From Cochliopodium minus (taxonomy: Eukaryota > Discosea > Himatismenida > Cochliopodiidae), in the NCBI GenBank assembly GCA_024220525.1, contig JAMYWO010000053.1, positions 46,910-110,909 of the forward strand: DNA of 64,000 nucleotides, written 5' to 3'. A program made the position numbers and the translations under genes. Below the pieces are notes generated by a model, which saw only the letters and a list, made by a program, of their open reading frames with translations, was not told the origin of the DNA and did no database searches. Positions 5,663 to 45,312 of the stretch are shown here, one piece after another. How positions within the stretch are numbered: position 1 is the stretch's first letter; each line of letters begins with the position of its first letter.

Positions 5663-6070
5663 ATGAATAAACAAATCTCAAAGAGAATCAAAGCCAAAAG
5701 CTCATCTCAAAGAAAAAAAATTGATGAAGGAAAAGGATTAAACTATAAATTGTTGAAGACAAATTTCATTAGAGAAAACATGATGATCTTCCATCTAAGA
5801 TCATTGGACATGTTTCAACTTTATAATCTCCTCAAATCAAAAGGTTTTAAAACTGAAGCCAAAAGATTTAAAGAAGATGAAGTAGATGGGATGTCCTTCA
5901 TTCTCATCTTTTCTGAAGAAGAGGGTTTCGACATTCTTCAAGATGATTTTGAATTCGAACAATCCCAAATCGAAAAGCTTTTGGAACTCTATCTTTTCTT
6001 CTACAGGCTTAGATCTAAAGGATGTGAAAATTTCAGAAAAGATGAAACTCCATTCTTCTTGTGCAAGTGA
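5663..6070 (+). CDS. small SAM-like protein, copy 1
   Basis: Single-exon 135-aa protein with a basic N-terminus (MNKQISKRIKAK). Residues ~48-105 (SLDMFQLYNLLKSKGF, then EDEVDGMSFILIFSEEE) have the spacing of a sterile alpha motif: helix, F/Y-rich turn, E-x-E/D-V-D-G, then L-x-x-x-E-E. SAM domains mediate protein-protein association; no other domain is present. A near-identical inverted copy lies at 33113-33514, also downstream of actin, so the pair arose by duplication of an actin-plus-this-gene block. This copy ends ...FLCK, two residues longer than its partner because TGC here is TGA there. The SAM assignment is from pattern only. Confidence 0.75.
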   Translation: MNKQISKRIKAKSSSQRKKIDEGKGLNYKLLKTNFIRENMMIFHLRSLDMFQLYNLLKSKGFKTEAKRFKEDEVDGMSFILIFSEEEGFDILQDDFEFEQSQIEKLLELYLFFYRLRSKGCENFRKDETPFFLCK

Positions 6071-6551: not shown

Positions 6552-9500
6552 ATGAAAAATATTTTTAACAATAAGAAGGAAATAGAAAAGCAAGATCCAA
6601 AATTGTTAAGAAATGTAAAAATTGGTTTTTTTTTTTAAATAATATATATTTGAGATGATAGAGAATTAAAGGAAATTTAATTTAATTCCATTTCATTTCA
6701 ATTCAATTTTAAAAGTTTCCAAGTTTGGTTGAAGTGATGAAAGGATCTGTAAAAGTAAAAGATAGGACATGGAGATCGAAATTGTATCCATGTTGTTTCG
6801 TAGGAAAATTTGCGGTGAAATGGTTTTGTACAGCATTCTCGCTCACAAAAGAAGAAGCAATAAAAATTGGAAAAGAATTGCAAAAAGCAGGATTTTTTGT
6901 AAGTATATTTCAAAAGGTACTTCTTGTTCGAAATATAAATTTACAACATAAATATGTGCACAATAAAGGTACCTTTGATTGAATATTAAAAATAATAATT
7001 TTATTTCTTCTTCCATATATAATTTATAATAAATCTTAATAATTCCTTCAATCCTCTTTTAATTCAAAATATACTCTTTATTGATTTGAAATAAATAAAG
7101 GATCATGTGATGAAAGAACACGAATTCAAAAATCAATATCTGTATTATAGATTCAAAGAAGACCAAGAAATACTAGATAAAGAATTGGACAACCTTGGTA
7201 CCAAAAGAAAAACAGTAGTGCTCTTCAAGGAAGAATCAGAGGATCTCCACAAACTCTTTGAAAACTTTAAGAAGGCACTAGCCTCAATAGACGAATTGGA
7301 TCTCTTCAATCCCTTAATATTCCATCCTTTTGTAGAAAGTTGTAAAAATTTAATCAAAAGAGCATCAGAGGATGGAAATTTCAAAGTAGATTTCGATTTG
7401 AGTATGAAACCAATGAAGGACAGCGACAGTTTCATCGACAGTTCTTATGATTTGAACGAATCCGATGATTTTTTTTCTCCGCTTACTCGGAACAGTAACC
7501 GCACGCAGTCTCCCTTTGATAAGAACAAGTCTTTGCACAAGGAATTGAAGAAATTTCATTCTCAAGCAACTATGAATTTGTTGCAAGAAGAAAATCTAGA
7601 GCTCAAAAGAAAAGTTGAAAACATTGAAGACAGATCTCTTGTATTTTTTTTTTCAAATTTTTAAATTTTGTTTAAAATTAGTTTTTCTAATTTACTTATT
7701 TCTAATTTTTATTTATTTTTTAATTTTTTTAATCCTTTAAATATTTTCATTCAAAAATAAAATATTTTTTAAAAAGTTTTTTGTTTGAGTGACTCCTAAT
7801 TTAGTTTTTTTTTTCTATTTAGGCAATAGATTTGTTGTCCACCCTTTCATCAAACAAATCACTAATCAAACTGCAAGACGAACTCAACGAAAAGAACGAG
7901 AAAATAAAAGCACTAGAACAGAAAATTGAAGAGCTAAAAGAAGCAGAGGAACTTTTGAACGTCTACAAAGAAAAAAATGAAGTACTCACCAAAGTTGTCG
8001 AAGATTTTTCTCAGAAAATGGAAACCACACATATTGTGTCCCATTCCAAAGAAATCATCTATGACAAAGAAAATATCGAGTACATTTCTTTGAGCTCCTT
8101 GATCAACTTGTTGGTTGATAATCCTAACTCGGAGTACTCTGATATTTGGTTCAACACTTACTGTTTGTTTAACTTGACTCCCAAGAATTTGTTGAACATT
8201 TTTGTTAAGAATTTTTGTGAGACAAGAGAAGAAAAGAAATGGAATGGGTAAAAAAAAAAAAAATATTTGTTAGTTTTTAATTCTTTAAATAATTTTAATA
8301 ATTTTCATTTTTAATTGTTTTTTTTTAGATTTTTTAAATTTTAATTATGTTTTTTATAAATTCTTTTCATTTTAAAAATGATTTTTTTTTTTTCGAAGAA
8401 TTGCAAATTTGGTGAAAAATTGGATTGAAATTTATTTGGAAGAAGATATTAAAAAAGACTCTGAATTTAAAGAAGTTTTGTTCGAGTTTGCAGAAAAAGT
8501 GATCTCTCCAGCACTAGGGAACAAAGAGTTTCTTTTCTTCTTCAAATTTTTTTTCCAACAAAAAGAGGAGGTGTCAGGTACGATTGTAAGAAGAGTAACC
8601 ATTGCTCCAAAGTAAAATATTTTTTAAAAAAATTAAATTTTTTCAAACATTAAACAAGAAATTTTATTCAAATATTTTCTTACAATTTTTTTTTCATAAT
8701 CTTTTTTCAATTTTTTTTTTATTTTTTTTTTAAATAGATTAAACGTTTTAACTGTTTCTGCACCTATGATCCCTCCCAAAACTGACAAAAACAGCTTTGG
8801 ATCACTGAGAGTAGCAAGGGCAATGTCCCTCTTCAAAAAATCGAAAAGTTCCGACAACATGAACGTGTACATCGAAAAGCCGAAAATAAAAGAGTCATTA
8901 CTCTCCATCTTATCACTCAACCCCAACCAATTCTGCGAAAATTTAATTTTATTTCAATTTAACATTTTTAAAAATATAAAACCAACCGAGTTTCATCACT
9001 TGAATTGGACGCGCAAAGATAAGTTGAAGCTCGCTCCTAACATTTGCAAGTCTACCAGCTATTTCAATCGTATTGCTGATTGGATGTTGAGTCAGGTTTT
9101 GTTGGAGAAAGAGACTGAAAATAAAATTAAATTGATGGAAATTTTAATTGACATGGGAAAATCTTGCATTGAAAAAGGTAAACCAAAAAGATTTTTTTAT
9201 TTTTTATTTTTTATTTTTTAAATTTGGTTTTTTTTATTTTTTTTTATTTTTTTTATTTTTTTATTTTTTCATTTTAAATATTTTTAAAAGGTGCCTTTCA
9301 TTGTGGTGTTCAAATATTTATGGTTATTTCAAATTTCAACCTTACAAAAATGAAATCAGTTTGGTCGCAACTCAGCGTCAACACCGAAAAAAACAAGGAG
9401 TTCCTCGAAGACGTTGCTTCATATCACAATAATTACTCTACCCTTCGAAGGGTCACCGCAATATCTAATCCATGTTTTCCTTATCTAGCATTACTATTAA

Positions 9501-9796
9501 GGTTAAAAAAAAAAATTTTGAATTTTTTTTAATTTTTTTTAATTTTTTTTTAATTTTTTTTAATTTTTTTATTTTTTAGTGATTATTTGTACATTGATGA
9601 ATTAAAACCTAAATACAGAAAAGGATTGATCAATTTCTCTAAAATAACTCAACTTTCTCAAATTCTAGTTTTCTTGAAAGAAGCTCAAGTTAGTTCTTTT
9701 AATTACAAATCAGATCCTTTCCTGACCAACTTGTTCACTCATTGTTCTGGTTTGAAAGATGAACAAGTAACCTCCTTAGCAAAAGATCTCATTTGA
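6552..9796 (+). CDS. DEP-domain Ras guanine-nucleotide exchange factor, copy 1
   Basis: Eight exons: 6552-6614, 6716-6898, 7101-7640, 7823-8247, 8399-8611, 8738-9177, 9291-9501, 9580-9796 (763 aa). Domains in order: a DEP domain at ~30-105 (VKVKDRTW, CCFVGKFAVKWF, YYRF); Glu/Lys-rich coiled coil at ~230-320; RasGEF N-terminal (REM) domain at ~345-460 (SLSSLINLL, LLNIFVKNFCE, WIEIYLEED); and a CDC25-type catalytic domain from ~490 to the end (FHHLNWTRKD, FNRIADWM, SCIEKGAFHCG, YIDEL). It should load GTP onto a Ras-like GTPase at the membrane, with the DEP domain as membrane or receptor anchor. A tandem paralogue starts 252 bp downstream with the same exon layout. Confidence 0.9.
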
Positions 9797-10047
9797 TTGA
9801 AACACGGGATATTTCTATCAAAAAAAAAAACTTCATTTTTTCTGAAAAACCTCTTTTTTTAAATTAAACTTGTTTTATTATTAATTTTATAGAAATTTAA
9901 TTTTTAATTTTTTTTTTTATTTTTTATTATTTATTCTAATTCCAATATTGATTAAATTTCATCAAATTTGATACTGAAACTATCTATCTTCTTTGGTATT
10001 TCTTTTAACAAAGTTAAGGTTTGGAATATTTATAAAATAAAAAAAAA

Positions 10048-12079
10048 ATGAAAAAATTTTTTACAGACAAAGATGATAAAATTCAAAAACAGGATACCAA
10101 ATTGCTAAGAAATGTAAATTCCAAAATTGATATTTTTCCATTTTTAGAAATATGACCATCTTTAATAAAATATTTTCAAAAGTTTCCAAAATTGGTCGAA
10201 GTGATGAAAATATGCGTAAAAGTAAAAGATAGATCATGGAGGAGTAAAGTATATCCATGTTGTTTTGTTGGGAAATATGCAGTTAAATGGTTTTGCAAGG
10301 CATTTTCGCTCACAAAAGAAGAAGCGATCAAAATAGGAAGAGAATTGCAAAAAGCAGGATTCTTTGTAAGTTTAGGGAGAAAAGAAATTAGTGTTTTATT
10401 TCATAATTCAGTTCCAAATATAAAAATTTTAAAATCTTTGTGATCTAAATATATTATTTCAATTTTTTCTAATCTTATGTTATCAAAGAGATTCAATATG
10501 AATATTCAATATTATATTATAACTTTATATACAATAATGAAAGAAAATATAAAAAAATATATTGGGGGCTTTTGATAATATTTTATAAATGAAAGATCAA
10601 ATAAAGAATTATCAACTTTAATAGGATCATGTAGTGAAGGAACATGAATTCAAAAATCAAAATTTGTTCTTCAGATTCAAAGAAGATCAAGAGAGAATGG
10701 ATAAAGAGATGGAGAACCTAGGCAAAGAAAAAATGAAGACAGTGATGTTGTTCAAAGAAGAGCTGGAAAACCTAGAGGAGCTGTTCAACAACTACAAAAA
10801 GGCGATCAACTCATTAGAAGAGAAAGATCTGACAAACCCAACGATATACTATCCTCTCCTAGAATCAAGCAAAACGTTATTAAACAAAATAGCAGTGGAA
10901 GGAAATTTCAAAGTGGAAGATGAATATGAACAATTGAAAAGCAGCAGTATTAATACAGATGAACTTTCAGAAAAAAATGAGTTGAAAAGAGAGGCTACCT
11001 CGGAAGATTTTTTCATTCATAATTGGAGCGTTTCTCCCAATTTGAAACCCTCTGTCATTCCCTTTGAGAAGAAGGACGATTCTTTCCACAAAAAACTCAA
11101 AAAGTTTCACACCAAAGCTAAAATACGTATGTTGGAAGAAGAAAACTTGCAACTCAAAAGGAAAGTAGAAAATTCTGAAGAAAGGAATCAAGGTAAAAAA
11201 AAAAAATAACAAAAATTTTTTTTTTGTTTTATCAATTAAAAATGTGTTAAAAAAAAAATTTAAAAATTTCTTTTTAAAAGCAATCGAGATATTGTCTCAA
11301 TTAACTTCGAGTAAAACTCTAACAGATCTCCAAGACGATCTCTCCGAGAAAAACAACAGAATAAAAGAGCTGGAAAAACAAGTGGAAGAGCTCAAAGAAA
11401 ACGAAAAGATGTTGGAGGCCTACAAAGAAAAAACCGAGGCACTATCACGTATCGTTGATGAATTCTCACATAAAATCGACACGACACAAAATTTGATCCA
11501 TTCAAACCAAGTTTTCTACGATGAAAAGAATCCTGGCATCATCAAGTTCATTTCTTTGAATTCCATTGTTAATATGATGATAGAACAGCCGGGCTCGGAG
11601 TTTTGTGACGTTTGGTTCAACACTTATTCTCTTTACAACTTTACTCGCATGAACTTGTTGAACATTTTCATCAGAAATTTTTGTGAGACCAGAGATGAAA
11701 AGAAGTGGATAAGGTAAAAAAAAATAAAATTTTTTTTAATAATTTTTATTTTATTTGTTCAAATAATTTTTAAATTTAATTATATATTTTTTGGATATTT
11801 TTTATTTTCAAAATTTTTTTTATTTTTAATTTATTTTTTTATTATTTTATTATTTTGCAAACAATTTTTTTTTCCAAGTATTGCAACTCTTCTTAGAAAT
11901 TGGCTTGAGGCTTATTTTGATAAAGATATTAGGAAGGATGATGAGTTCAAGGAGATTCTTCTCGAGTTCGCCGAAAAGATATTAACACCTGCCATCAACA
12001 ACGAAGAGTACTTGTTTTTTTTCAATGATATTTTCCAAAATGGTCCTAATAACATCAAAAAGGTTACCATTGCTCCGAG
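10048..12079 (+). CDS. DEP-domain RasGEF, copy 2, truncated by assembly break
   Basis: Exons 10048-10113, 10183-10365, 10625-11192, 11281-11713, 11879-12079 match copy 1 exon for exon through the DEP domain, coiled coil and REM domain (~483 residues). The last exon ends at a GT donor (12080) matching copy 1's donor before its CDC25 exons. The catalytic domain never appears: the next intron runs into AAAAAT repeats, a single N at 12181, and then an unrelated CCA enzyme. The intact exon phases and lack of stops suggest the rest was lost in assembly rather than by mutation, but a real truncation cannot be excluded. Confidence 0.85.
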
Positions 12080-23644: not shown

Positions 23645-23853
23645 CTCTAAATAAACTTTTAAAATCAAATTTTAATAGAACCTTTCTTTTTTTATCAGAT
23701 TGAAAAGAATAGAATTGTGAAAAGAATACAATTGTTATATCATAAATAATTCTTCATGATTTGAAAATTCACAAGTTGATAAGAAAATATTTAAATAAAA
23801 TTTGAATATTTCACTTTCAAAAAAAATAAAAAAAAAGGAGATAGGAAAACAAA

Positions 23854-26800
23854 ATGAAAGGACCCTTCAAAATTCAATATCACTTTAAAAACAAGTTCAA
23901 TATCTTCTCCACAAAAAAGATCCTAAACAAAATAAATTATTCTTCATCCAATATAATTGGATTAGGAAGGAAATATTTTGGACTATACTCCTATAATAGC
24001 TTTAATATGTCACAAAATAAAAGATTTTATTGCAATTATGATAATTTTGAACAATTCGAGCGAAGTATGGAGATAGAAGAACAAACATCAAATAATCATG
24101 TCAATAATTACGAGGAGCAATATAATCCATTGCCAGAACATGAAGATATGTTCGGGAAAGATCAAAAAGATTCCTTATATGGCTATGTGGAGAAGATTTT
24201 GTTTCATAATAAAGAAACTGGCTTTGTGATATTGAGTATGAATGTAAATACAAAAGGAAGGAACAAGAAAATGAAAGTATTAGGAAAAATGCCTTCAAAT
24301 TTTGTTGAGGGACAATATATTCACGTTGAAGGCAAATGGGAGACAGCCAAAGATTATGGAGTTCAATTGAGGGCGATCTCTATCAAGCCAGTGATGCCCA
24401 ATTCGAATGAAACAGCATTCAATTACTTAAAATCATTCAAGGGGATAGGAAAATCATTCGCAAAGAAATTGATAGATCAATTTGGGGTGGAAATATTTGA
24501 TATAATCGAAAAACAACCTTCCAGATTATATTTGGTAAATAAAAAAAAATGAACATAATTTTTAATATTTCTTTGCTTCAAAACTTTCATAAAATAATAT
24601 CTTATCAAATTTTAATTTAATAGAATTATACTTGTCATGAAAAGAAAATCCTTTCATAACATTTCTTCAAATTTTTTTTTTTTTTACTTTTTGTAATAGG
24701 TGAAAGGAATAGGAAGAGCAAAGATAGAAGCGATGATAAAAAGTTGGAACGAAAGAAAAGAGTGCTTCGAAACAACTTCATTTCTTTACGATTGCGGAAT
24801 AGGATCCGCTCACTCTGAAAGACTCTACCAGAAATACGGCAAACAAGTCGAAGAAATGCTTCAAAACAATCCGTACAGCTTAGTAAAGCTCTCTTCTAAT
24901 GATGGTTCTTTATTAAAGGATGATGGAATCAATTTTGAGCTTGCTGACAAAATAGCAGAAAAGTTGGGTTCTCCTGGGAAATTCTTCAAGGAAAGATTGG
25001 AATGTGCCATCATTTATAATTTATTAACCATAAATCAAAAATCTGGACACAGGTATTTTTAAAAAATATTTTATTTTATTTTTATAAAAATATTTCTTAT
25101 AAATTTTTGATAATTTATTAAATTTATAAAAATATTTCTTATTTATATTTTAAACTGTTTTAGATTTTTTAAAAAAAATTTTTATTGATTTAATTTTTAC
25201 AAAATATTTCTTATAAATTTTTTTAAAATTTTTTTGGAGATTTTTTTAATTTTTTTAGATTTTTTAAATTTCATTAACTTGTTTTGTAAAAATTAATCTT
25301 TTTTGAATTTATAAAATGATTTTTTTTTAAAAAAGTTGTTTGCCAAAACATATGTTGATTAAATCAACAGCTAAAATGCTTTCTAACGAAGAGGAATCAT
25401 ATCTTAAATTTATTTCTGACACAATCGATGAACAATGCAACAATGAAACATTAGTTAAACACTTTTCTGATCAGGTTGAATGGATCTACGAGCCTGTAAT
25501 GTTCAAACATGTAAAAAAATAAATAAATAAAAATAAAAAATAATTAAAAATAATTTAAAATAATAAAATAAAAAAATAAAAAAATAAAAATAAAAATGAA
25601 AATGATAAATAAATAAATAAAAATATATAAAAATAATGAAAAAATAAATGAAAAAATAAATAAAAATAAAAATAAATAAAATAAAATTTTTGAAAAGGAA
25701 CAAGAATTAGCAGATGAAATCAAAAGAATAAAGAATGGGAGATTTCCTTACCCTTATGTCAACACTGATAGTATGACAGAGATCATAGAAAAGGAAATGT
25801 CCATTGAATTTTCTCCACAGCAAAAAGAAGCAATCCATCTTTCCATGAAAAATAATTTGCTTATTATTACTGGGGGGTAAAAAAATAAAAAAAAAAAATT
25901 ATTTTTTATTTTTTTTATTTTTTTTATTTTTTTTATTTTTTAAATTTTTTTTTATTATTTTTTATGAATTTTAATGAACAACAAAAAAAATTATTTTTTT
26001 TTTGATTAGACCTGGTGTAGGAAAGAGTCATACTATCTCTGCCATTCTTAGAATATACAATAAACTTATGCTTCAACCTGTTTTAGCTGCGCCTACTGGT
26101 ACCAAATATAAATAATTTTTAAAGAAATAAATAAAAATAAAAATCCAAAAAATTTTAAAAAAATAAAAAATAAAATAAACAAAAAATTTAAAAATAATGA
26201 TAAAAATAAAATAAATAAAAATAAAATAAAATAAAATAAAATAAAATAAAATAAAATAAAATAAAAAATTTTTTAGGAAGAGCATCTTCTAGATTAACGG
26301 AAATTACAGGCAAAAAAGCTACAACTATCCATAGATTGTTGGATTATCATCCTCAATCCAACTCTTTCCTCAAAAACGAACACAACAAACTGGAAAACAC
26401 TTTGTTTTTGATAGATGAAGTTTCCATGATAGATCTTGCTTTGGCCAATGCATTATTCAAAGCAATACCAGACAACGCAATTGTTATATTAGTTGGGTAA
26501 ATTTATATTTTATTTATTTTATTATTTATTAATTGATTTTTTTTTTAATAAAATTTTTTTAATTTATTTGAATTTTTTTTAATTTTTTTGAATTTTTTGA
26601 ATTTTTTTAGTTTTTTTTTAATTTTTTTTAATTTTTTTTTAATTTATTTGAACTTTTTTTTTTTTAGAGATATTAATCAGTTACCTTCTGTTGCTGCTGG
26701 ATCAGTTTTAATAGATTTGATATCCTCAAAGTACATTCCAAACGTGGAGTTAATCAGTGTATTTAGACAAAAGAAACATAGTAAAAAATAATAAAAAAAA

Positions 26801-28509
26801 TTTTTAATTTTTTTTAAATTTTTTGTTTAAAATAATTTTTTGTTTATTTTTTAAAAATATTTTTTTTAATCATTTTATTTTTTAAATTTATTTATTTTTA
26901 AAAAAATAATATTTTTTAAAATTTTTTTTTCGTTGAAATAGGTAAAATTATTGATGCAGCTTACCAGATATTGCAAGGGAAATTACCCTCATTGCCTTCT
27001 TTTTTTCTTCCTTTTCAAAACACAGACACAGACTATTTTGACCATTCCAATGTGGAGAACAGTTATCTCAGCAGTGCTCCTCTCCAAATCACTGACAATT
27101 CCAATGTGGTTGATATTTTCAAAAAATTGAAAGATCCTAATCAAAAGATCAGTTGGGACAAATTTATTGAAGAAGGAGGAGATTTCAGGTAAAATAAATT
27201 TTATATTAATTTACTTTTTATTATTTCATTTTATTTCTTCATTTATTTCATTTATTTCATTTATTTCATTTATTTCATTTATTTCATTTATTTAATTTGT
27301 TTCATTTTATTTCATTAATTTCATTTTTATTTCATTATTCCTAAAATTTTAATTTGACTTTTTTTTATTTATTTTAGTTTAATTTCATTTTTAAACATTT
27401 AAATTTAATACCAAGATATTTTAATTTTTGAATGGAACTTCTGGTTTTATCTTTTTAATATTTTATTTCATTTCAAATTTTAATTTCATTAAATATTCAT
27501 TTTTCAAAAAAAAAAAAAAAGATTCATCGAGTGTTATAATGAAAAAAAAGCTCTCGACTGTATTTTAGAACTGATCAAATACCTCCCCAACTTCTCCTTT
27601 GATCCAATCAAAGATATACAAATCCTCACACCCATGAGAAAGGGAAACTTGGGAAGCAGAAACATTAATCATCTCATCCAAAACATGTTTCATCCCAACT
27701 CTAACCAAAAAAACACTTTTTTGAGAAACTCTAGTGAAAAATTCATTTTGGGTGACAAAGTCATGCAAATCGTCAACAATTATGATAAAGATGTATTTAA
27801 TGGAGAAATAGGTAATCTATTTTTAACATTTTTATTTTTTTATTTTTTAATCATTTTTCATATTTATTTTTTATTCTTTTATTTTCCATTTTTTTATTTT
27901 TATTTTTTATACATTTTTTTTTTTGATTATTTTTTATTTATTTTGTATTTTTATTATTTTTTGTTATCATTTTTTTCAAAAAAAAAATTTATTTCGATTT
28001 TTTATTTTATTTTTTTATTTTTATTATTTATTTATTTTTTTTGTTTTTATTTTTAAAAAAATTATTATTATTTATCAAAAATTGAACATTTTCATTTTTT
28101 ACAAGGAATTATCACGGATATTGATTTCAACGAAAAAAAAGTTACAGTAGAATACAAAACGTACGATGTGGTCACAAACGAAGAAAACAAAGAAGAAAAC
28201 AACACCTCCCAAAACTTGCAAGAAATCTCCAAGTTTGTCGTCTACGAAAACGATGACCTACAAGAAATAACAACCGCCTATTCCATGACCGTCCACAAAT
28301 CTCAAGGATGTGAGTTTCCCGTTGTGATCATCGTTGCTCATCCTCAACATCTCGTCATGTTGGAAAAAAATTTGCTTTATACTGGAATCACCCGCTCTAA
28401 AACTTTGACTATTGTTGTTGGTACTACTGATGCTTTTAATGCTGCTATTAAGAAGTCCAAAGGTAATAAGAGATTCAGTTTTTTGAAGGATAGAATCCAT
28501 TCCAATTGA
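23854..28509 (+). CDS. RecD2-like ATP-dependent DNA helicase (SF1B), likely mitochondrial
   Basis: Ten exons: 23854-24534, 24700-25052, 25336-25510, 25698-25876, 26010-26098, 26277-26496, 26668-26780, 26942-27188, 27522-27811, 28106-28509 (916 aa). The N-terminal ~80 residues are basic and Ser/Asn-rich, like a mitochondrial presequence. They are followed by the RecD2 layout: an OB-like domain (GYVEKILFHNKETGF), two helix-hairpin-helix units (FKGIGKSFAKKL, VKGIGRAKIEAM), then the helicase core: Walker A GGPGVGKS (462-469), AAPTGRAS, TTIHRLL, Walker B LIDE (537-540), VGDINQLPSV, VHKSQGCEF (845-853) and YTGITRSK. RecD2 unwinds DNA 5'-3'. The family is mainly bacterial, so transfer or endosymbiont origin is likely. 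PIF1 is more distant and lacks the OB-HhH front half. Confidence 0.92.
26214..26265. repeat. ATAAA tandem repeat in intron
   Basis: About ten ATAAA units inside the fifth intron of the helicase gene. No other feature. Confidence 0.7.
27236..27330. repeat. TTTATTTCA tandem repeat in intron
   Basis: Nine-base TTTATTTCA units repeat about six times and then decay, within the eighth intron (27189-27521) of the helicase gene. The intron is otherwise empty. Confidence 0.7.
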
Positions 28510-28622: not shown

Positions 28623-31168
28623 ATGAAATTTTCTTCTTTGTTCATTTTCTTAATATTTTGCATCTTTAAAATATATTCTATACCAGTATCAGGTATATAA
28701 TAAAGAACATTTTCATTATTTCCTTTGGCATTTTTAATCAAAAAAAAAAATTTATATTCACAGTGATGGTCAGCTCATAAAAGAAAAAATTTATCAACAA
28801 TTCTCATATTTTGACGAATTAATTGTATTCTCCTCCATCTATTTAGCTCCCATTAGATACCGTGACTAATGACGGACAATTGAATAATCAAGCTGCATTA
28901 TTATCTCAAATGCAAACATTGAAATCAGGAGGAGTGGATGGGATAATGGCAAGAAAGAACATTCCTCTTTTAAAAAACATTTGTTTTAAAAAAAAGAAAA
29001 TTCTTCTGAAAATTCTTTTTTTTATTTTTTTATTTTTAACAATTAAATTTAAAAAATAAAGACTGATGTTTGGTGGGGTATTGTTGAGAGAAATGGCCCT
29101 AAGCAGTATGATTGGAAAGCATATTTGTTGTTGGCAGAAATGGCAAGAAACACAAGCTTGAAGATGCAAGTTGTAAATGATTAACTCTCCTTCCTTCTTT
29201 TCCAAATTAAAAGCTATTCATCATAAAAATTATATTCTTAAAAAAAAAAAATCAGGTAATGTCTTTTCATAAATGTGGAACAAATGTTGGAGATGAATGT
29301 AAAAAAAAAACTTTTTTGAAAAACTAATAATCCCATTAGGTTACGTAATAAATTTTTAATTTTTTTAATTTTTTAAATTTTTTTAAATTTTTTTTTTTAA
29401 AGTTTAAATTATTTTGAATAAATCTTTTTGTTTTAGATCACATTACCACAGTATGTTTTAGAAGTGGGAAAGAGGAATAGTGACATTTTTTACAAGGACT
29501 ATGGTTATAATGCAGACGAAGAATATCTTAGTTTGGGAGTAGACAATGAAACTTTGTTCGAGGGAAGAAGTCCTCTTCAAATTTATGCTGATTTCATGCA
29601 AAGTTTTTCTGATAATTTCAAATCTTTTTTTCCGAACACCATCGACCAAATCCAAGTAAAAAAAAGAAATTAAAATAAAATAAAATAAAATAAAATAAAT
29701 TTTGTAAAATAAAAAAATAAAAATAAAAAATATTTGTAAAATCAATAGGTTGGATTAGGACCTGCAGGAGAGATGAGATATCCTTCTTATCAGTTACAAG
29801 ATAATAAATGGTGAGATAATAAATTTTTTTTAATTTTTTTTAAAATTCATCTTTTAATTTAGGCAATATTGGTAACAAAAATAACTTATTTTTTTTCATT
29901 TTTGAAATTTAATTTTAATTTTTAAAAAAAAGTGGAATAGGAGAATTTCAATGCAACGATAAATACATGCTTCAAAAGCTGAAGAATCATTCAATTCAAA
30001 ATGGTTTTTCTTTTTACATTATTTATTTTTATGATTTTTTCAAATTATTTTTTTTTTTAAATAGGACATCCTGAATGGGGAAAAGGAGCTCCTAGTAGTG
30101 CGGGAAATTATAATTCGCAACCTCCTTCGAGCGTACCTTTTTTCTCATCAAGTGGATTTGACAATTATTCCTCTTCTTAGTAAATATATAAATTTAAAAA
30201 ATCATTATAACAAAAAAAATTTATAACAAAAAAATATTAAAAATAAAAATTAATCAATCTTTTCAAAGCGGAAAATTCTTTTTGGAATGGTAAAATTTTT
30301 TTAAAAAAATTTAAACTTTATTACTTGACTCTTCATCTCAGGTACTCCAACATGTTGAACAAACACGGAGAATTGATATTATGCGCTGCGAATAACATTT
30401 TTTCTCCTCATCACATCCATGTTGCTGCCAAAATTTCTGGTAAATCAAAAATATTAATAATAAAACAATAAATAATTTTAAAATATTTAAAAATGAAAAG
30501 GAATTCATTGGTGGTATGCTGACAATTCTCATGCAGCGGAAGTAAAATTTAAATTTTTACAAGTAAAAAATTTTTTTGTTGAAAAAAATTTAAAAAGTTG
30601 ACAGCAGGATATTACAACACAAACAATGTTAATGCTTGTAAATTTTTTTTTTTATTCAAGAAATTAGGAAAATATGAATCAAATGATTAATTTAAATAAA
30701 AAAGATTACAATATTGCTCAAACTCTTAAAAAATGTAATGCTGCATTCGATTTCACTTGCTTGGAAATGAAAGATGCAAGCGATTGTGGCTCTAGACCCC
30801 AACAACTCGTCAAACAAGCCATACAAGCATCCAATCAAGTTGGAGTACCATTTGGTGGTGAAAACGCTTTAAATTTTTGTTCAAATGGTAAAAAAAAATA
30901 AAAAAATAAAAAATTTTAACTGAAAAATAAAAAAATAAAATAATTTTTTTTAATTAGGATGTTACCAAGATGGTTTTGATGAGATTTATAAACAATCAAC
31001 TCAATATGGAAACATTGAACTTTTCACTTTTTTAAGACTCTTTCCAGGTCTTTTGACAGGCAATAATTGGTACCAAATTTAATCATTTTTTTTTATTAAA
31101 ATTTTTCTTCTTTCAAAATACAAAGGAACATGTTCAGATCGTTTGTATCAAGAATGCATAATGCATAG
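28623..31168 (+). CDS. secreted beta-amylase (GH14)
   Basis: Eighteen exons, 458 aa: 28623-28692, 28764-28768, 28847-28948, 29062-29172, 29256-29298, 29340-29344, 29437-29655, 29749-29810, 29863-29871, 29933-30003, 30065-30179, 30269-30289, 30342-30439, 30501-30541, 30598-30627, 30668-30887, 30958-31069, 31126-31168. A signal peptide (MKFSSLFIFLIFCIF) precedes the GH14 blocks: VMLPLDTV, GVDGIMTDVWWG, VVMSFHKCGTNVGD, VGLGPAGEMRYPSY (acid Glu193), GIGEFQCNDKY, GKFFLEWYSN, ISGIHWWY, AGYYN, FDFTCLEMKD and GGENALNF (base Glu399). It should release maltose from the non-reducing ends of starch or glycogen, outside the cell or in digestive vacuoles. Exons of 5, 5 and 9 nt are needed to keep frame and family alignment. 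The donor at 28949 is GC; the donor at 28769 (GTCAGC) is weak. Confidence 0.9.
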
Positions 31169-33112: not shown

Positions 33113-33514
33113 TCACAAAAAGAATGGGGTTTCATAATTTCTGAAATTTTCACATCTTTTAGATCTAAGCCTGTAAAAGAAAAGATAGAGTTCAACAAGC
33201 TTTTCGATTTGAAATTGTTCAAATTTAAAATCATTTTGAAGGAGTTCTAAACCCTCTTCTTCAGAAAAGATGAGAATGAAGGACATCCCATCTACTTCAT
33301 CTTCTTTAAATCTTTTGGCTTCAGTTTTAAAACCTTTTGATTTGAGGAGATTATAAAGTTGAAACATGTCCAATGATCTTAGATGGAAGATCATCTTGTT
33401 TTCTCTTATGAAATTTGTCTTCAACAATTGATAGTTCAATCCTTTTCCTTCATCAATTCTTTTTCTTTTAGATGAGCTTTTGGCTTTGATTCTCTTTGAG
33501 ATTTGTTTATTCAT
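33113..33514 (-). CDS. small SAM-like protein, copy 2
   Basis: 133-aa intronless protein, about 88% identical by eye to copy 1 (5663-6070), sharing the SAM-like core LYNLLKSKGFKTEAKRF and EDEVDGMSFILIFSEEE. Most differences are conservative (Q/K, D/E, F/L) and the frame is intact, so both copies look maintained. It ends two residues early because the TGC of copy 1 is TGA here; the bases beyond (AAG TGA) still match copy 1. It lies downstream of the intact actin on the same strand, repeating the order seen at 4015-6070 in reverse. Confidence 0.75.
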   Translation of the reverse strand: MNKQISKRIKAKSSSKRKRIDEGKGLNYQLLKTNFIRENKMIFHLRSLDMFQLYNLLKSKGFKTEAKRFKEDEVDGMSFILIFSEEEGLELLQNDFKFEQFQIEKLVELYLFFYRLRSKRCENFRNYETPFFL

Positions 33515-33956
33515 TTTTGTGGTTAATTTTTTTTTATTTAATTTTAATTAGATTTTTTTTTTATTAAAATTTTTTCTTAAATTTCTAAATTGAATTTTAA
33601 TTGATTTTTAATTTCCCTTTCGTAATACGCCAAATGTTCAAGTGAAAAATACATTTTGGGTAACTAAAAACGAAATTCCCCAAAAGAAGATAATTCACAA
33701 AAATTTTTTTTATTTTTTTTAACCTAAATAAATTTCTTTCAAATTTTTAGTCATTTTTTCTTAAACAGTTTAATTAAAATGACAAAAAGATCAGATAAAT
33801 CCGGTTTTGACAAAAATTTTTATTTTCTCAATAATTTGAATTATAATTGATTTTTAATTTCCCTTTAAAGAAGCAAATAATTTGAAACACATTAAATTTT
33901 CAAGTGTAAATTAGATTTTGGTCAATTTAGTCAGTAATTAGCTTTTAATTTTTTAG
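33515..33956. other. intergenic, duplicated spacer
   Basis: No gene. It contains two imperfect copies, about 250 bp apart, of a short block (TTGATTTTTAATTTCCCTTT ... TTCAAGTG), and a block around 33795-33825 that matches the reverse complement of 5500-5530 in the left arm. The short ATG frame at 33779 is within this matching non-coding sequence. Confidence 0.5.
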
Positions 33957-37239: not shown

Positions 37240-37538
37240 TTTTTTTTATTTTATGTTTCATTTTTTAAACAAAGCATTTCTTGATGAAAATCAAGGGTTA
37301 AAAGTTTGGTTGAATGATCTTCAAATTGTAATTGAATTTTTCATATTTTAGATAAATTTGTGATTCTAATTTGATTTCTTTTATCTTTTCGCCAAAAAAT
37401 ATTTTGGATGTCAATTCAAATCGAAGTATTAGCTTCTTTCTTTTAAAATATTTGTGGATCTTTCAAAAATGTTCTTTTTTGTTTCTTTTTTTTTTTGTTT
37501 AATATTGAAAATAAAATAAAATTGAAAAATTGACAGAA
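37240..37538. promoter_or_regulatory. divergent spacer before the sphingosine-kinase array
   Basis: About 300 bp between divergent starts. No coding sequence and no recognisable site beyond T-rich tracts. Confidence 0.45.
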
Positions 37539-39703
37539 ATGAACAGAAACACAAATTATTACTTTAATAGAAATACAAAAGATGCTGAGATCATCCAAAA
37601 GAAAGGTGTGGTGATATATAAAGATAATGCTTGTGATATAGTGATAAAATCAGATAAAATAATCATTAAGCAAATAAATCCATCTATCTTTGCAAGTAAA
37701 ATAGCCAAATATAATTATTTTAACCTTATCAAAAAAAATACATTTAACAAAATTTCATTTCAAGATTTTGCTAAAGTAGAAACAGTGATTCCAATGGATA
37801 TAATTTTGGGTGTTGAACAAAATAAATTTTTTAATAGAAGATTTGGGATACATGCCTATCCAAAAAATCCAACTTCATTGAAAAGATATCAAGAAATCTA
37901 CGAAATAGAATGCAAAGATAAAGATGAATGTTTAGAATGGTCGAGAGCAATTGAAAATTGTGCAAGAGAAGGAGATGTTGATATAGATGCGAGAATACCT
38001 AATTTATTATTCATTGTGAATCCTTTTTCTGGAACCAAGAAAGCATTGACCATTTTTGAAACAAAAGTGAGACCTTTATTGGAGATTTCAAAGGTGAGAT
38101 ATGAAAAATTCGAAACTCAATATGCAGGTAAATTTCTTTGATATGAATATATTTAAGATTATGCTTAATAATTAGAATATTGAGCAATTTTAACTTTATC
38201 ATTTCTATTATATTAAAAATATTCACCAATCATTATCATTTTTCTTTATAAATTTCTTTAATAATAAAGGACATGCCGCAAAACATGCTTCAACATTAGA
38301 ATTGGATAAATTCGATGCATTAATAACAATAAGCGGAGATGGACTCTTTTACGAAATGTTAAATGGGCTTTTAAGCCGTAAAGATTGGGAAATAGCAATA
38401 AAGATACCGATTGCCGTAATTCCGGGAGGGAGTGGAAATGCATTAGCAACAGCAATGGTAGGAGTCTTGGATCCATTAACATCCGCGTTCAATGTGATCA
38501 AGGGAATGGCAAAAGCATTCGACATAGGGAGCATTTTGCAAAGGGACAGAAGGACGTTTTTCTTCCTTTCTTTCTCTTGGGGTATAGTTGCTGATGTCGA
38601 TTTCGATAGTGAAAAGTTGAGGTGGATGGGTTCTCCAAGGTTTACTGTAAAAAAAACTTTTTCAATCATCTTTCAAATTTAAAACTTCATTTAAAATTTT
38701 GAATTCTTTTATCACCAAAATATTTCTTAAATAAATTGTTCTTATTTTTTCTTTATTCAAAATGTTTTAATTAGGTTACGGCAATACAAAAAATAGCAAA
38801 TTTAAAACTTTATAAAGGAAAGTTAGAATACATTCCAGTACAAGACTGGAAGCCTGAAAAAGAAAATTTGTGTGACGTAAATTGCAACATCTGCCTTGAA
38901 AGTCCCCAACAAGTCCTTTCTCTTTACCAAAACAGCATTAATGAGGAAAGCGAAGATGAAGAAGAAAAAAGTGATAACAACAATAATTTTAAAAGTAAAA
39001 TAAATGAAGAAATCAGAGAGGAAATAAAACAAGAAGGTATTTTTTCTATTTTTTTAATATCATTTTTTTTCAAATATTTTTTTTTTTTTTTTTCTTTTTT
39101 CTTTCAAATAATTTTTAAAAATTTGTTCATTTATTTTTTTAAATTTTTTTGATCAAAAAGAAAAGAATGGAGATTCTCCGATAGATTATAGTGTTGATTA
39201 TGATCACGGTCCTGAGTTTAATTATATTGGAAACAACCCTTTAGAAAAAGATGAGGAATGGGTATCGATGGAGAATGATGATTTCATTTCTGTTTCTGTC
39301 GGCAACGTAACCCACATTGCTCACGACATGAAGAGTACTCCTTATTCTCATTGGAGTGATGGTTTGCTTGATTTGACCATCGCTAGAAATATGAAAAGAA
39401 CACAAGCTGTATACATTATTTTTATTTATTTTTTATTATTTTATTTTTTTTTTGTTGATTTTTTTTTTTATCTTTTTTTAAAATTTTTTTTTTTAGATTT
39501 CTATGTTTACAAAGATAGAGAAGGGTGAGCATGTGGGTCACGAAGGTGTTTTGTACACAAAAGTCAAAGCTATCAAATTGTATCCGGATCAAGATCAGTT
39601 CGGCTATTTGGATGTTGATGGCGAGAAACTTCCATTCTACGAGCCTTTGTCCATTGAGTTGCACAGAGGTTTGGCAAATCTAATTTTGCCTATTTCTAAA
39701 TGA
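37539..39703 (+). CDS. sphingosine kinase-like lipid kinase, array copy 1
   Basis: Five exons: 37539-38127, 38270-38646, 38775-39036, 39161-39408, 39497-39703 (560 aa). A PH-like N-terminal region (KDAEIIQKKG... IPMDIILGV... WSRAIENCAREGD) precedes the DAG-kinase/sphingosine-kinase fold: LLFIVNPFSGTKKA, TISGDGLFYEMLNGLL, IPGGSGNALA, SWGIVADVDFDSE.LRWMG. The C-terminal half has VGNVTHIAHDMKSTP and YLDVDGEKLPFYEPL. It should phosphorylate sphingosine to sphingosine-1-phosphate. An acidic Asn/Glu-rich insert (~residues 370-410) is variable between copies. Exon 1 lacks the intron that splits the PH-like region in copies 2 and 3. The start chosen is the first ATG. Confidence 0.9.
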
Positions 39704-39887
39704 GTATTTTTTATTTTATTTTATTTGAATCAAACAATTTCAAATAAATTCTAAATTATTTTTTCAAAACAAAACAAATTGTGGGAGACTTTTCTTTTCG
39801 CTTGAGGAATAAATATCTCTTTAAATTCCTCTTTGTGATTATTTCAATTTAAAAATAACCTCTTTTTTAAATCTCAAAATAAAAAAA

Positions 39888-41834
39888 ATGGATTCAAATA
39901 AGAAATCATATTACTTTGTCAGAACTCCTAAGGATGAGTCAATTATCCAAAAATCTGGAAATTTTGTATATTTTAACTTTTTCCGTAAAGAATGCCAGAT
40001 AACCATCACTTCCAAAAAGTTAATTATACAAGATAACAATTCTGAAAGTAATGATTCATTCTTTTGTCAATATTTAAAGTTTTGAGGAACTATAATTAAA
40101 TTGTTTCCTCTTTTTCATTTTTAAAAACATCTTTAATTATTGAAGAGGAAGTTTTTATACCGATGGATATTATTATTGGGGTTGTAAATAAAGAGGAGAA
40201 CAATTTTTGGGTGATCTCTTATCCAAAGAATACATACACAAAGAAGAGAAAGCAAGTGATCCATAAATTTCAAGCAAAAAATCTCTCAGAAAAGAAAGAA
40301 TGGATAAAAGCTATCGAAAATTGTGCAAGAGAAGGAGATGTAGAAATAGAAGCCAGATCCCCAAATCTATTATTCATTATAAATCCTTATTCTGGGACAA
40401 AAAAAGCATTGACCATTTTTGAAAGAATTGTAAGGCCATTTATGAATATAGCACAGGTGAAATATGAGAAATTTGAAACCCAATATGCAGGTATAAATTT
40501 ATTATAATCAATTTCCTAAAAAAATCCAAATTTTTAAATTCAAATTCATTTTTAAATGTAAAAAAAGGACATGCATATCAATATGCTTCCACATTGGATT
40601 TAGATAAATTTGATGCAATAATAACAATTAGTGGAGATGGGTTATTTTATGAATTGTTGAACGGACTTTTAAGTCGTAAAGACTGGGAAAAAGCAATTAA
40701 AATTCCTTTGGCTCCAATACCGGGAGGGAGTGGAAATGCTTTAGCAGTAGCTTCAATAGGTGTTTTGGATCCTTTATCATCATCTTTCAATATTGTAAAG
40801 GGGATGGCCAAACCATTTGATATAGGAAGCATTATTCAAAGGAATAGAAAATCTTTTTTTGCCCTAAATTTTTTTTGGGGAGTTTTTGCTGATGTAGATT
40901 TTGAAAGTGAGCCATTAAGGTGGATGGGTTCTGCCAGATTCACTGTAAAAAAAAAATTTTCTATGTCCAAAGTTTTTAAACAAAATAATACTTTTTTTAA
41001 TTTAAAAACTTTAATAGATTACAGCCATTAAAAAAATTATTAGTCCAAAATTGTACAAAGGAAAATTGGAGTATATTCCTTTTAAGGATTGGAAATTGGA
41101 AGATAAAGTTACTTGTGACTTTAAATGCGAACATTGTCTCGAAATCCCTCAATTAAATGAAAATAATGAAAGAGACGTTAACGAAAATAATGAGAATACT
41201 CAAGAAATTAGTCTTGTAATAGAAGAGAAACCAAAAGGCAAGAATATTAAACTGGCATATCTAACAAAAAAAAGAAATAAAAATTTTCTATTTCATCGAT
41301 TTAATTATTTTCTTTTAAAAGACAATAGAAATTCTCCAATGGATTACAGTGTTGATTTAGACCATGGTCCTCCTTCTAATTATATTGGAAATAGCCCTTT
41401 AAAAAAAGATGAAGAGTGGGTTACAATGGATCACGATGATTTTATGTCTGTTGCAGTTGGTAACATTTCACACATTTCCCACGACATGAGGAGCTCTCCT
41501 TTTACACATTGGAGTGATGGATGTCTTGATTTATCTGTTTCAAGAAATTTGAAAAGATCTCAAGCTGTAATTTATAACAAATTTTCATATTGCTTTTTAT
41601 AAAATTTTTATTTCCAAGCTTTCAATTTTCTTGAAAATAGAAAAGGGAGATCATGTTATTGGGAATGAGGAGGCCTTATTTTACACTAAAATAAAAGCAA
41701 TGAAACTTTATCCTGACCAAAATCAGACAGGATATTTAGATGTTGATGGTGAGAAGCTTCCTTATTATGAACCCTTATCCATTGAAATGCATAGAGGTTT
41801 GTCTAACCTTATTTTACCTGTCTCTGATCTTTAA
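39888..41834 (+). CDS. sphingosine kinase-like lipid kinase, array copy 2
   Basis: Six exons: 39888-40047, 40146-40490, 40568-40944, 41018-41237, 41322-41566, 41619-41834 (520 aa). It keeps the catalytic motifs NPYSGTKKA, TISGDGLFYELLNGLL and IPGGSGNALA, plus FFWGVFADVDFESEPLRWMG. Compared with copy 1 it has an added intron in the PH-like part and a shorter linker. The intron 41238-41321 would use a GC donor (AAAAG/GCAAGA). It lies at the position and phase of a GT-AG intron in copy 1, is 84 nt long and has no in-frame stop, so it could also be retained as 28 residues. It starts 184 bp after copy 1, same strand. Confidence 0.88.
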
Positions 41835-42150
41835 TAAATTATTTGAAAAATTTTATCTATTTTTTAAAACTAGTCAAAGAAACTTTTTCTGAATCATATC
41901 CATCTTTTAAAAAATTAATTATGTAAATGAGCAGGTTATTCAGGAACTCTGGAAATTTTGGTAAACTTGAACCATGAAAATTTTGATGTTTCTTAAAGTT
42001 TAGATTTCATTGTTTTTTTTTCTCATTATTAACTTTCAAATGAAGCTTTTTTTTGTTGAAAAAAAGGTTAAATTCAAGTGGTGAATAACATAGATTACTT
42101 TTCCTTCTGGTTTTTTTAAATTCAAAAAAAAGATAAATTGAAAAAAAAAA
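41835..42150. other. intergenic between kinase copies 2 and 3
   Basis: 316 bp, no coding sequence. Ends in an A-rich leader resembling that of copy 2. Confidence 0.5.
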
Positions 42151-44843
42151 ATGAATAAAGAGAAACCATATTACTTTGTAAGAACACCCAAAGATGAATC
42201 GATTATCCAAAAAATTGGAAATTTATTCTATAAGAAGAAAGAATGTGAACTTTCAATTTCTTCCAAATCACTCAAAATAAAAATAGTCAAAGCAGAAAGT
42301 AAAAAATGAAAGATATGTTTAAATAATTCACCATGTTAAAATCAATGCATATTAATATAATCAAATAAGAGTGAGAATTGATTATATTTGTTAACCCAAA
42401 ATTTATATGAAAGGGGAAATCATAATACCAATGGATATAATCATAGGGGCGATAGAAAAAGAGGAGAACAATATATGGGTGATCACCTATCCCAAAAATC
42501 CATCCACAAAGAAAAGAAAACAGGTGATACATAAATTCATTGCGATGAATGAAACAGATATGAAAGAATGGGCAACTGCCATCCACAATTGTGCAAGAGA
42601 AGGAGATATAGAAATAGATGCGAGAACACCCAATCTATTATTTATCGTGAATCCCTTCTCGGGAACAAAGAAAGCATTGTCCATATTCGAAACGAAAGTG
42701 AGACCATTATTGGAATTTTCAAAAGTGAAATATGAAAAGCTTGAAACGCAATATGCAGGTAAATTGAAAAAATATAAATAATCAAATAATTATTTTCTTT
42801 TTCAAACCCACTCTATAAATTTTTGATAAAATAAAATAAAAATAAAATAAGATGAAGAGTATATAAGGTTTGGTGGATTTATAGGAACAAGATGTTACAA
42901 TTTAGAGCAATACATATCTTTATGATATGATTTAAATCAATCATATTATTATTTTTTTCAAAATTAAAATCTTGAGAGATCAAATTAATATTTCTTTCAA
43001 TTTCTATTCCAATCTATATCCATATATGAAAAGATATATCTGGTTGATTTTACAATGGCATTAAAAGTTAAGATTGATATGATAAAGGAGATCAATATAA
43101 AAGTTAAATTATATTATCTATTATTAATTTCAATGACATTAAAATAACGATTATTCAAACATTTAATAATCAAATCGAATGAATTAAAGGACATGCCGCA
43201 AAATATGCTTCAACATTGGAATTGGATAAATTCGATGCACTGATAACAATAAGTGGAGATGGACTCTTTTACGAAATGTTGAATGGACTCCTCAGCAGAA
43301 AAGACTGGGAAAAAGCAATAAAACTTCCCATCTCAGTAATTCCGGGAGGAAGTGGGAATGCATTAGCAACAGCAATAGTGGGAGTTTTGCACCCCTTAAC
43401 ATGTGCTTTCAATGTGATCAAGGGAATCGCCAAACCTTTTGACATAGGAAGCATCCTCCAGAAAGACAGAAGAACTTTTTTCTTTTTGGCTTTCTCTTGG
43501 GGTATCATCGCTGACGTCGATTTCGATAGTGAAACATTAAGGTGGATGGGTTCTGCCAGATTCACTGTAAGAAATTCCAACAAAAAAAAAATATTAATTT
43601 TAAAAAAAACATTAATTTAAAAAATTATTAATTTAATTAAAAAATAATAATTTTAAAAAAACATTTATTAATTTAAAAAGAATAAAGATAAAAAGATTTT
43701 ATTTTAATGTTTATTTTTAATAATTTTTTTTGAATAGGTTACAGCAATAAAAAAAATAATCAGTTTGAAAAAATACAAAGGTAAAGTGGAGTATATACCT
43801 GTTCAAGATTGGAAGCCAGAGAAAGAAAGGTTGTGCCACTCTAGTTGCGACATATGCCATTCTCATTCAAAAGAAGAAAAAAGTAAAAATAAAAGTGAAA
43901 TTGTTGAAAACGAAAAAACAAACAAAAACATTGAAAATAATGATAATAATGGTGAAAACAGTGATAAAGGTTGTGAAAGTAGTGAAAGTGAGAATAATGA
44001 AAAAAAAGATAAAAGAGGTATGTTGAAAACCGTTAGCTCTTTTTCTGTCGTAGAAAAAGATGACAAGCAAGAAATTAAAGAAGATAAAGTCGACTTTGAA
44101 GAAAAAAGAGATGTAGAAGATAAAGAAGGACCAACTGAACAGAAGAAAGTAAATAACATCGTAGATTACAGTGTAGATTTAAACCACGGACCTGTTTTTA
44201 AGTAAAAAAACAAAAACAAAAAAGATTCAGAAATAAAATAGTTACAAAACGATTTAAAAATAATAATCCCAAATTTATTTTAGATACATAGGAGAAAATC
44301 CCATTGTAACAAACGAGGAGTGGATAACCATTGAGTCTGATGACTTTATTTCTATCTCTGTCGGAAACGTATCTTTAATTCTTTTTATTCTCAAAAAAGT
44401 TTCAATTTCAATTTTTTTATGTTAATAGGTAACTCATCTCTCACATGACATGATCGCAACACCTCATGCTCATTGGAGTGATGGATATTTAGATATGGGG
44501 ATTATTCACAAGCTGGGAAAAGCAAAAATGGTAAAAAAAAAAAAAAAAACTTTTTTTATGGTCAAATTTTAAATATTTCTTTTTCATTAAAAAAAAAACT
44601 TTTTTTTTTGAATTTTTTTTTTATTCTATTCAGATTTCTTTATTTGGTAAACTTGAAAAAGGAGAACATGTTGGCGACGACAAAATCAACTATTACAAAG
44701 TAAAGGCTATTCGTTTGTTCCCCGATCCCAACCAGACTGGTTATTTGGATGTTGATGGAGAGAAACTTCCTTATTATGAACCTTTATCTCTTGAATTGCA
44801 TAGAGGTTTGGCAAATTTAATCCTCCCTGTATCCGAACTATAA
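42151..44843 (+). CDS. sphingosine kinase-like lipid kinase, array copy 3
   Basis: Seven exons: 42151-42298, 42414-42758, 43190-43566, 43738-44201, 44284-44368, 44429-44530, 44634-44843 (576 aa). Catalytic motifs NPFSGTKKA, TISGDGLFYEMLNGLL, IPGGSGNALA and SWGIIADVDFDSETLRWMG are intact. The acidic linker is the longest of the three (about 100 residues of Lys/Glu/Asn/Ser). It has a private intron between ...ISVGN and VTHLSHDM that copies 1 and 2 lack, and no intron where copies 1 and 2 split the acidic linker from DYSVD. The 431-nt intron after ...QYAG is unusually long for this locus. Confidence 0.9.
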
Positions 44844-45312
44844 AAAAGTCTTTTCATTAAAATAAATTATCTTTTTTTCACTAAAATTAAATTCTCTTCT
44901 TTTTTTTTTAATCAGGATTCATTGTCAAAATTAATTTTTTCTTTTTAGTGCAATTATTTTAAAGAGATTTACTTGAACTTTTACTTCATTCTTTAATTTT
45001 AAAGGTTTAAGAATATTAACTTTAATAAAGCCAATTTTAATTATTTTTTATTTATTTTTTATTTATTTTATTTATCAACGTCTAAAAATCTCAACGTTGA
45101 CAAAAAATAAAAAAAAATAAATAAAAAAAACTGAAGGGGGAAAAAAAATTTTCAAAGAGAAAATTAAATAAAGTGAAATATAATCAAAATTTTGAAGATT
45201 TCCCACGAAACAAATACAAAAATATTTAGTTTTTCACCCTTATTTATTTTTTAAAGAATAAAAAAATAAAAAAAAATTGAAAGATAACCAAAATCTTTTT
45301 ATAAAGAAAAAA
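44844..45312. other. intergenic upstream of the bZIP gene
   Basis: 469 bp. A GAAA/TTTT-rich spacer with no reading frame of note. A short near-palindromic stretch (AACGTCTAAAAATCTCAACGTTGAC) lies around 45077-45101 and contains ACGT-type cores that could bind bZIP proteins; this is suggestive only. Confidence 0.4.

Follow-up and report, generated by a model that had tools for sequence, protein, structure and literature searches.

Coding exons of 1–15 nt, or microexons, form an established class that has been studied mostly in animals, where the work concerns neuronal and regulated exons, and in plants, where it concerns conserved motifs. A survey of ten plant species recorded 2,398 microexons of 1–15 nt, 337 of them in the unicellular Chlamydomonas, and placed them in 0.61–2.59% of expressed genes, figures that include non-coding exons (57–90% being coding); 9-nt exons of GH32 invertase, a sugar-cleaving enzyme, are among them (PMC8831610). 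Constitutive examples smaller still are the single-nucleotide exon of Arabidopsis APC11, tested with APC11-GFP fusions (PMC4674806), and the 4-bp exon of human MPC1, of which minigene versions of 2, 1, and 0 bp were still spliced (PMC9929638). One study looked, among other things, for microexons of 3–15 nt in the ichthyosporean Creolimax (PMC4739763). Among the papers listed in a limited search of open-licence PMC, those with microexon in the title or abstract dealt with plants, animals, or a fungus or were methods and reviews, and none was recognised as reporting a beta-amylase microexon or frequent microexons in a protist.

Here we describe a beta-amylase gene of Cochliopodium minus that belongs to this class, found in a stretch of 64,000 nucleotides (the window) forming part of contig C53. 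The genome is AT-rich (assembly of 44.65 Mb in 598 contigs), and the G+C content of the window ranges from 0.16 to 0.33 in 2-kb steps. Taken by itself, this gene is a modest finding; the new part may be the frequency of microexons in the lineage.

Results

Judged by its sequence, the locus is a full-length GH14 beta-amylase gene, running from ATG to TAG in an 18-exon model that was put together by hand (Table 1). Its 17 introns measure 41–113 nt and all have AG acceptors, with 16 GT donors and one GC donor; the GC-AG intron, starting at 28949, had been overlooked in the preliminary description, and exon 12 was absent from it. The 449-residue product matches Pfam PF01373 (GH14) with 354.8 bits, against a curated cut-off of 27, over profile positions 1–402 of 402, and it aligns to Arabidopsis BAM1 (8j5d) and soybean beta-amylase (1bfn) free of gaps at all three microexon places. 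The GPAGEMRYPSY and GENALNF blocks are both present and aligned to the soybean enzyme; we take GPAGE and GENAL to be the blocks carrying the catalytic glutamates of beta-amylase. The N-terminus appears hydrophobic by eye.

Table 1 Positions of the beta-amylase gene and of the short exons retained in this study (a slash within a codon marks an intron)
Feature	Position	Strand	Description
Beta-amylase (GH14) gene	28623..31168	+	18 exons, 17 introns, ATG to TAG, 449 aa
Exon 1	28623..28692	+	70 nt, phase 1 at end (..TCA G)
Exon 2 (M1)	28764..28768	+	5 nt, TGATG; V-M of VMLPLD, via G/TG ATG
Exon 3	28847..28948	+	LPLDTVT...GIM; then GC-AG intron (GCAAGA)
Exon 5	29256..29298	+	VMSFHKCGTNVGDE; phase-1 end, then 41-nt intron
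Exon 6 (M2)	29340..29344	+	5 nt, GTTAC; completes Cys and adds Tyr of DECYITLPQ (T/GT TAC)
Exon 7	29437..29655	+	ITLPQYVLEV...
Exon 8	29749..29810	+	GPAGEMRYPSY block; phase-2 end
Exon 9 (M3)	29863..29871	+	9 nt, GCAATATTG; W-Q-Y-C with split codons, TG/G CAA TAT TG/T
Exon 10	29933..30003	+	GIGEFQCNDKY...
Exon 12	30269..30289	+	Short, 21 nt; YGKFFLEW including split codons
Exon 16	30705..30887	+	GGENALNF block
C17 paralogue, kept exon			5 nt
L034 (C98:45500-48500), cathepsin-L-like	711-718, 947-965, 1036-1048, 1743-1768, 1860-1885		Internal exons of 8, 19, 13, 26, 26 nt; 8 and 13 nt kept
L027, kept exon			15 nt
L032, kept exon			9 nt
L065, kept exon (Ras-family)	1162-1172 (reverse-complement coordinates)	-	11 nt; switch/DTAGQE region
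L070, kept exon (Ras-family)	1110-1122		13 nt (GCCGGACAAGAAG); conserved switch/DTAGQE region

Elsewhere in the window, several features were noted, the gene families being judged by eye. The upstream neighbour (~23800-28509) is a multi-exon gene with motifs resembling a RecD/Pif1-like helicase, whose stop lies ~110 nt before the beta-amylase ATG. Three tandem gene copies at 37500-44850 resemble sphingosine/diacylglycerol kinases in their translations, and a tandem pair of similar frames (~6700-9800 and ~10150-12000) presumably carries a DEP-domain-like region. Two near-alike frames with MNKQISKRIKAKSS lie on opposite strands, at 5648-6067 (+) and 33116-33547 (-), as a dispersed duplicate.

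The three tiny exons of the beta-amylase gene (M1, M2, and M3) are all internal, fall within 1–15 nt, and have AG before and GT after; they lie exactly where the preliminary description had put them, and joined to the 15 other exons they yield an uninterrupted frame of 449 aa. Its central proposal, three microexons in one beta-amylase gene, draws further support from the alignment to plant enzymes of solved structure and from a diverged paralogue elsewhere in the genome. Two of its statements held in part. Each exon was said to fix a phase mismatch and to shift the frame if skipped, which is true of the two 5-nt exons: computed skipping of M1 brings a stop after residue 30, and that of M2 a stop after residue 124. 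The 9-nt exon lies between two phase-2 introns and corrects no mismatch, and computed skipping of M3 keeps the frame and the full length minus 3 aa. The further claim that 5 nt is close to the lower limit for a spliceosome fails, since constitutive exons of 1 nt (PMC4674806) and 4 bp (PMC9929638) have been published.

Placement was explored independently of the hand-built model, with a protein-to-genome spliced aligner of our own, the sole aligner used, which allows GT/GC-AG introns, sets no minimum exon length, and applies fixed penalties. Queried with BAM1 or the soybean enzyme alone, it recovered GTTAC and GCAATATTG without prompting; M1 was missing from these alignments because the local alignment begins downstream of it. 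With the paralogue as query, all three were placed. Forbidding the respective acceptor lowered the spliced score by 17 (M1), 39 (M2), and 17 (M3) with the paralogue, and with BAM1/soybean by 20/15 (M2) and 15/10 (M3).

Among the GH14 matches listed, for which the best candidates were scored, there were six, three on C53, belonging to this gene, and three on contig C17. The latter represent a paralogue of 13 exons, identical to the window copy at 300 of 445 aligned residues (67%). A 5-nt exon, TAATG, occupies the same position and phase there as TGATG in the window copy; this exon was spotted in the sequence, and the aligner then placed it when queried with the window protein, which means that its recognition was not blind. 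The V-M encoded at the M1 position is also the plant sequence. In the paralogue, C-Y and W-T-Y-C lie within ordinary exons and so show independently which residues to expect from M2 and M3: those of M2 are identical, and three of the four of M3 agree. Eight of the 17 window introns are common to the paralogue, among them the two flanking M1 and the one upstream of M3, while the two flanking M2 and the one downstream of M3 occur in the window copy only.

To gauge chance, we defined a candidate as a stop-free, frame-keeping AG-N(1-15)-GT/GC that leaves introns of ≥25 nt. Each of the three intron pairs holds one such candidate, the claimed microexon itself. We then counted how often dinucleotide shuffles of the intron interior contained a candidate that, scored without gaps, equalled or exceeded the observed one. 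Against the paralogue residues, 13 of 20,000 shuffles did as well as TGATG, 5 of 20,000 as well as GTTAC, and 1 of 20,000 as well as GCAATATTG; for the paralogue's own TAATG the count was 8 of 20,000. Against plant residues only, the counts were 4, 74, and 4 of 5,000, respectively. Plants have V-T or V-N where M2 gives C-Y, and C-Y is what the paralogue has, contiguously encoded. When the whole gene was realigned after shuffling, the observed score was reached in 1 (M1), 0 (M2), and 0 (M3) of 60 shuffles with the paralogue as reference, and with BAM1 in 8 of 60 for GTTAC and 1 of 60 for GCAATATTG, TGATG being outside that alignment. All three exons thus keep the frame and supply conserved residues beyond chance; with plant references alone M2 is weak, and it is therefore convincing only through the paralogue. 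The aligner itself invented exons of ≤15 nt in 15, 5, and 0 of 60 paralogue-reference shuffles (M1, M2, and M3); across 16 shuffled sets some such exon appeared in 0–20 of 60, usually at a lower total score, and a tiny exon alone therefore proves little.

Splice-site scores did not support stronger sites beside the microexons. The donors after M1 (GTCAGC) and M2 (GTAATA) scored 2.4 and 2.1 against a mean of 6.8 for 21 other introns, and the next acceptors 0.9 and 0.1 against a mean of 6.2; in the paralogue, one acceptor (-2.7) scored below all 21 and both donors (10.6) above all 21. Introns flanking exons of ≤15 nt were shorter than the others (median 70 nt, n = 23, vs 103 nt, n = 84; nominal p 0.018), in a set that included one dropped and one unproven exon. 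U12-type introns, whose donor consensus is RTATCC, were discarded as an option, the flanking donors being GTATAT, GTCAGC, GTAAAA, GTAATA, GTGAGA, and GTAACA. A search for branch-point motifs gave nothing convincing. Across 126 introns from 20 of the genes sampled below, the commonest donor was GTAAAA (46), position +5 was A in 82 and G in 16, and two introns were GC-AG, both with GCAAGA. A U1 candidate below threshold (36.7 bits against a gathering score of 69.5) begins with ATACTTACCTG, presumably the canonical U1 5' end; +5 is mostly A despite this canonical-looking end.

Tiny exons seem not to be peculiar to the beta-amylase gene, as several unrelated genes appear to carry similar ones. The sample comprised 22 genes, namely the two beta-amylases, four conserved-family genes (aconitase, a cathepsin-B-like protease, glycogen phosphorylase, and the first part of the RNA polymerase III largest subunit, with the reference taken to ~930 residues), seven papain-like genes, and nine Ras-family genes. 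The last two groups were picked mainly for partial or broken six-frame matches, which biases the sample towards genes with many introns. From at least 28 papain-like matches, eight genes were aligned, including the cathepsin-B-like one; the nine Ras genes were counted among at least 164 matches, eight of them coming from the first 40 stretches taken, and their references were paralogues from the same genome. Of 112 internal exons, the aligner put 14 at ≤15 nt and 11 at 16–30 nt, and the 134 introns had a median of 83 nt; none of the 30 internal exons in the four conserved-family genes was ≤15 nt. Ten of the 14 were kept, in 7 of the 22 genes, one was left as unproven, and three were dropped. 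Since genes without introns went uncounted, 7 of 22 is not a genome-wide rate: outside the count, as intronless in their conserved part, were HSP90-like and actin-like frames of the window (by eye), a 1653-codon PRP8 frame, and 28 of 30 Ras loci whose match ran from profile position ≤7 in one open frame. Locus L063, with 2 exons, also lay outside it.

For each kept exon 0 or 1 of 60 shuffles scored as well (the window exons being judged against the paralogue). The strongest case is the 8-nt exon GGTCAATG of L034, inside KNQGQCGSCW, whose removal costs 63–73 score units and which was placed by a codon-usage gene finder as well. Forbidding the kept 9-nt exon of L032, which completes VKDQGECGSCW, costs only 14 or 6 units. 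We take VKNQGQCGSCW to be a papain-like protease motif and DTAGQE a Ras motif. The unproven case is a second 13-nt exon of L070, GGAAAACTGCATT, at the P-loop GKTA motif, for which 8 of 60 shuffles scored as well and forbidding costs only 8 units. We dropped a 1-nt exon of L028 (8 of 60 shuffles as good) and a 7-nt exon of L030 (30 of 60, though forbidding it cost 24–29 units with three references), and did not keep a 6-nt exon of L027 with a score gain of only 6. A 13-nt exon of L027 was dropped as well: 0 of 60 shuffles were as good, yet a 31-nt exon scored nearly equally (17 or 4 lower), so the shuffle control does not rule out a longer exon.

Among side observations, several of the short exons of L034 lie at conserved motifs. 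The Ras-family matches (at least 164 genome-wide, counting places rather than genes) suggest a large expansion, in which copies open in one frame occur alongside intron-rich copies.

Discussion

The open frame, the homology to the plant enzymes, and the diverged paralogue make it very probable that M1, M2, and M3 are genuine coding exons of a functional beta-amylase and are as a rule retained in its mRNA. Each short, AT-rich intron (41–113 nt) would be recognised as a unit across the intron (intron definition), and an exon between two such introns would therefore need no minimum length. We read in this sense the splice sites, which are no stronger beside the microexons than elsewhere, together with the shorter introns next to tiny exons. 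The introns would probably be removed one by one, a first splice joining the microexon to a long exon and a second following. M1, common to both paralogues, would be the older; M2 and M3 would owe their existence to introns of the window copy that lie a few bases from a neighbouring intron and are absent in the other copy, having been gained in the one or lost from the other. The gene would in this respect illustrate a more general tendency of the genome.

Alternatively, each intron pair could be one longer intron using other GT and AG sites, with no microexons and a few residues missing. A codon-usage gene finder blind to homology indeed joins 29298 to 29465 and 29792 to 29933 and the frame stays open, but a microexon-free model loses VM, CYITLPQYVLEV, and QLQDNKWQYC, which are conserved in the paralogue and partly in plants, and the best such alternatives cost 17–39 units with the paralogue and 10–20 with plants (M2 and M3); we regard this as very unlikely. 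Least probable of all is that the microexons are accidental patches in a decaying copy or across assembly indels. The second, less fragmented copy on C17 would fit decay, against which stand 18 exons open in one frame with GT/GC-AG sites, intact GPAGE and GENAL blocks, and the agreement of M2 and of three of the four M3 residues with the paralogue; assembly error would hardly explain the M1 structure in two diverged copies.

We also considered that inclusion is regulated and sets amylase output, so that leaving out M1 or M2 would yield a truncated transcript that decays, and leaving out M3 a protein differing by 3 residues near the active site. The computed skip products (stops after residues 30 and 124, or loss of 3 aa) would fit such a switch. 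Moreover, M2 starts with GT right after AG, so that a product of recursive splicing lacking GTTAC is conceivable: the GT could regenerate a donor at the first splice and drop the exon. Set against this are the scatter of similar exons over unrelated genes and the structure of the paralogue, in which the M2 and M3 stretches lie within ordinary exons, and we hold such a switch to be unlikely, if somewhat less so than the two preceding explanations. Constitutive inclusion of three coding microexons is the reading we retain.

A more far-reaching proposal, for which we see even odds, is that ultra-short coding exons are routine in this lineage. Exons of ≤15 nt would then occur in genes by the hundreds to thousands; they would arise where new introns are gained a few bases away from older ones, and would be tolerated because the spliceosome sets no lower exon size. 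If true, paralogues cut differently within VKNQGQCGSCW or DTAGQE would be a natural experiment on microexon birth, and another microexon-rich lineage would offer a test case for intron definition and the origin of microexons. It would also carry a warning, as the ab initio model of the beta-amylase gene illustrates, that ordinary gene finding may deliver truncated or frame-patched proteins for many genes.

Compared with BAM1 (8j5d) and the soybean enzyme (1bfn), the sequence of the catalytic domain is alike, and the unusual part here is the exon structure. With the microexons of plants, as set out in the main text of Yu et al. 2022 (PMC8831610), those of the beta-amylase gene share being internal, encoding conserved motifs, often not being a multiple of 3, and often being missed by annotation. 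The plant exons belong to other gene families (the word "amylase" occurs 0 times in that main text), and the microexon-flanking introns of the window gene, 41–92 nt and very AT-rich, differ from those of plants as described there. Against the 0.61–2.59% of expressed genes reported from RNA-seq, our 7 of 22 comes from a biased sample and from genomic sequence alone. The APC11 exon (PMC4674806) is likewise tiny and set between two introns, at 1 nt against the 5 and 9 nt that we infer here. The MPC1 exon (PMC9929638) is, as the exons here would be, constitutive, not a multiple of 3, and placed between two separately removed introns; according to that report it relies on a strong exon-definition sequence in the bordering introns, whereas splice-site scores and 5-mers are what was looked at here.
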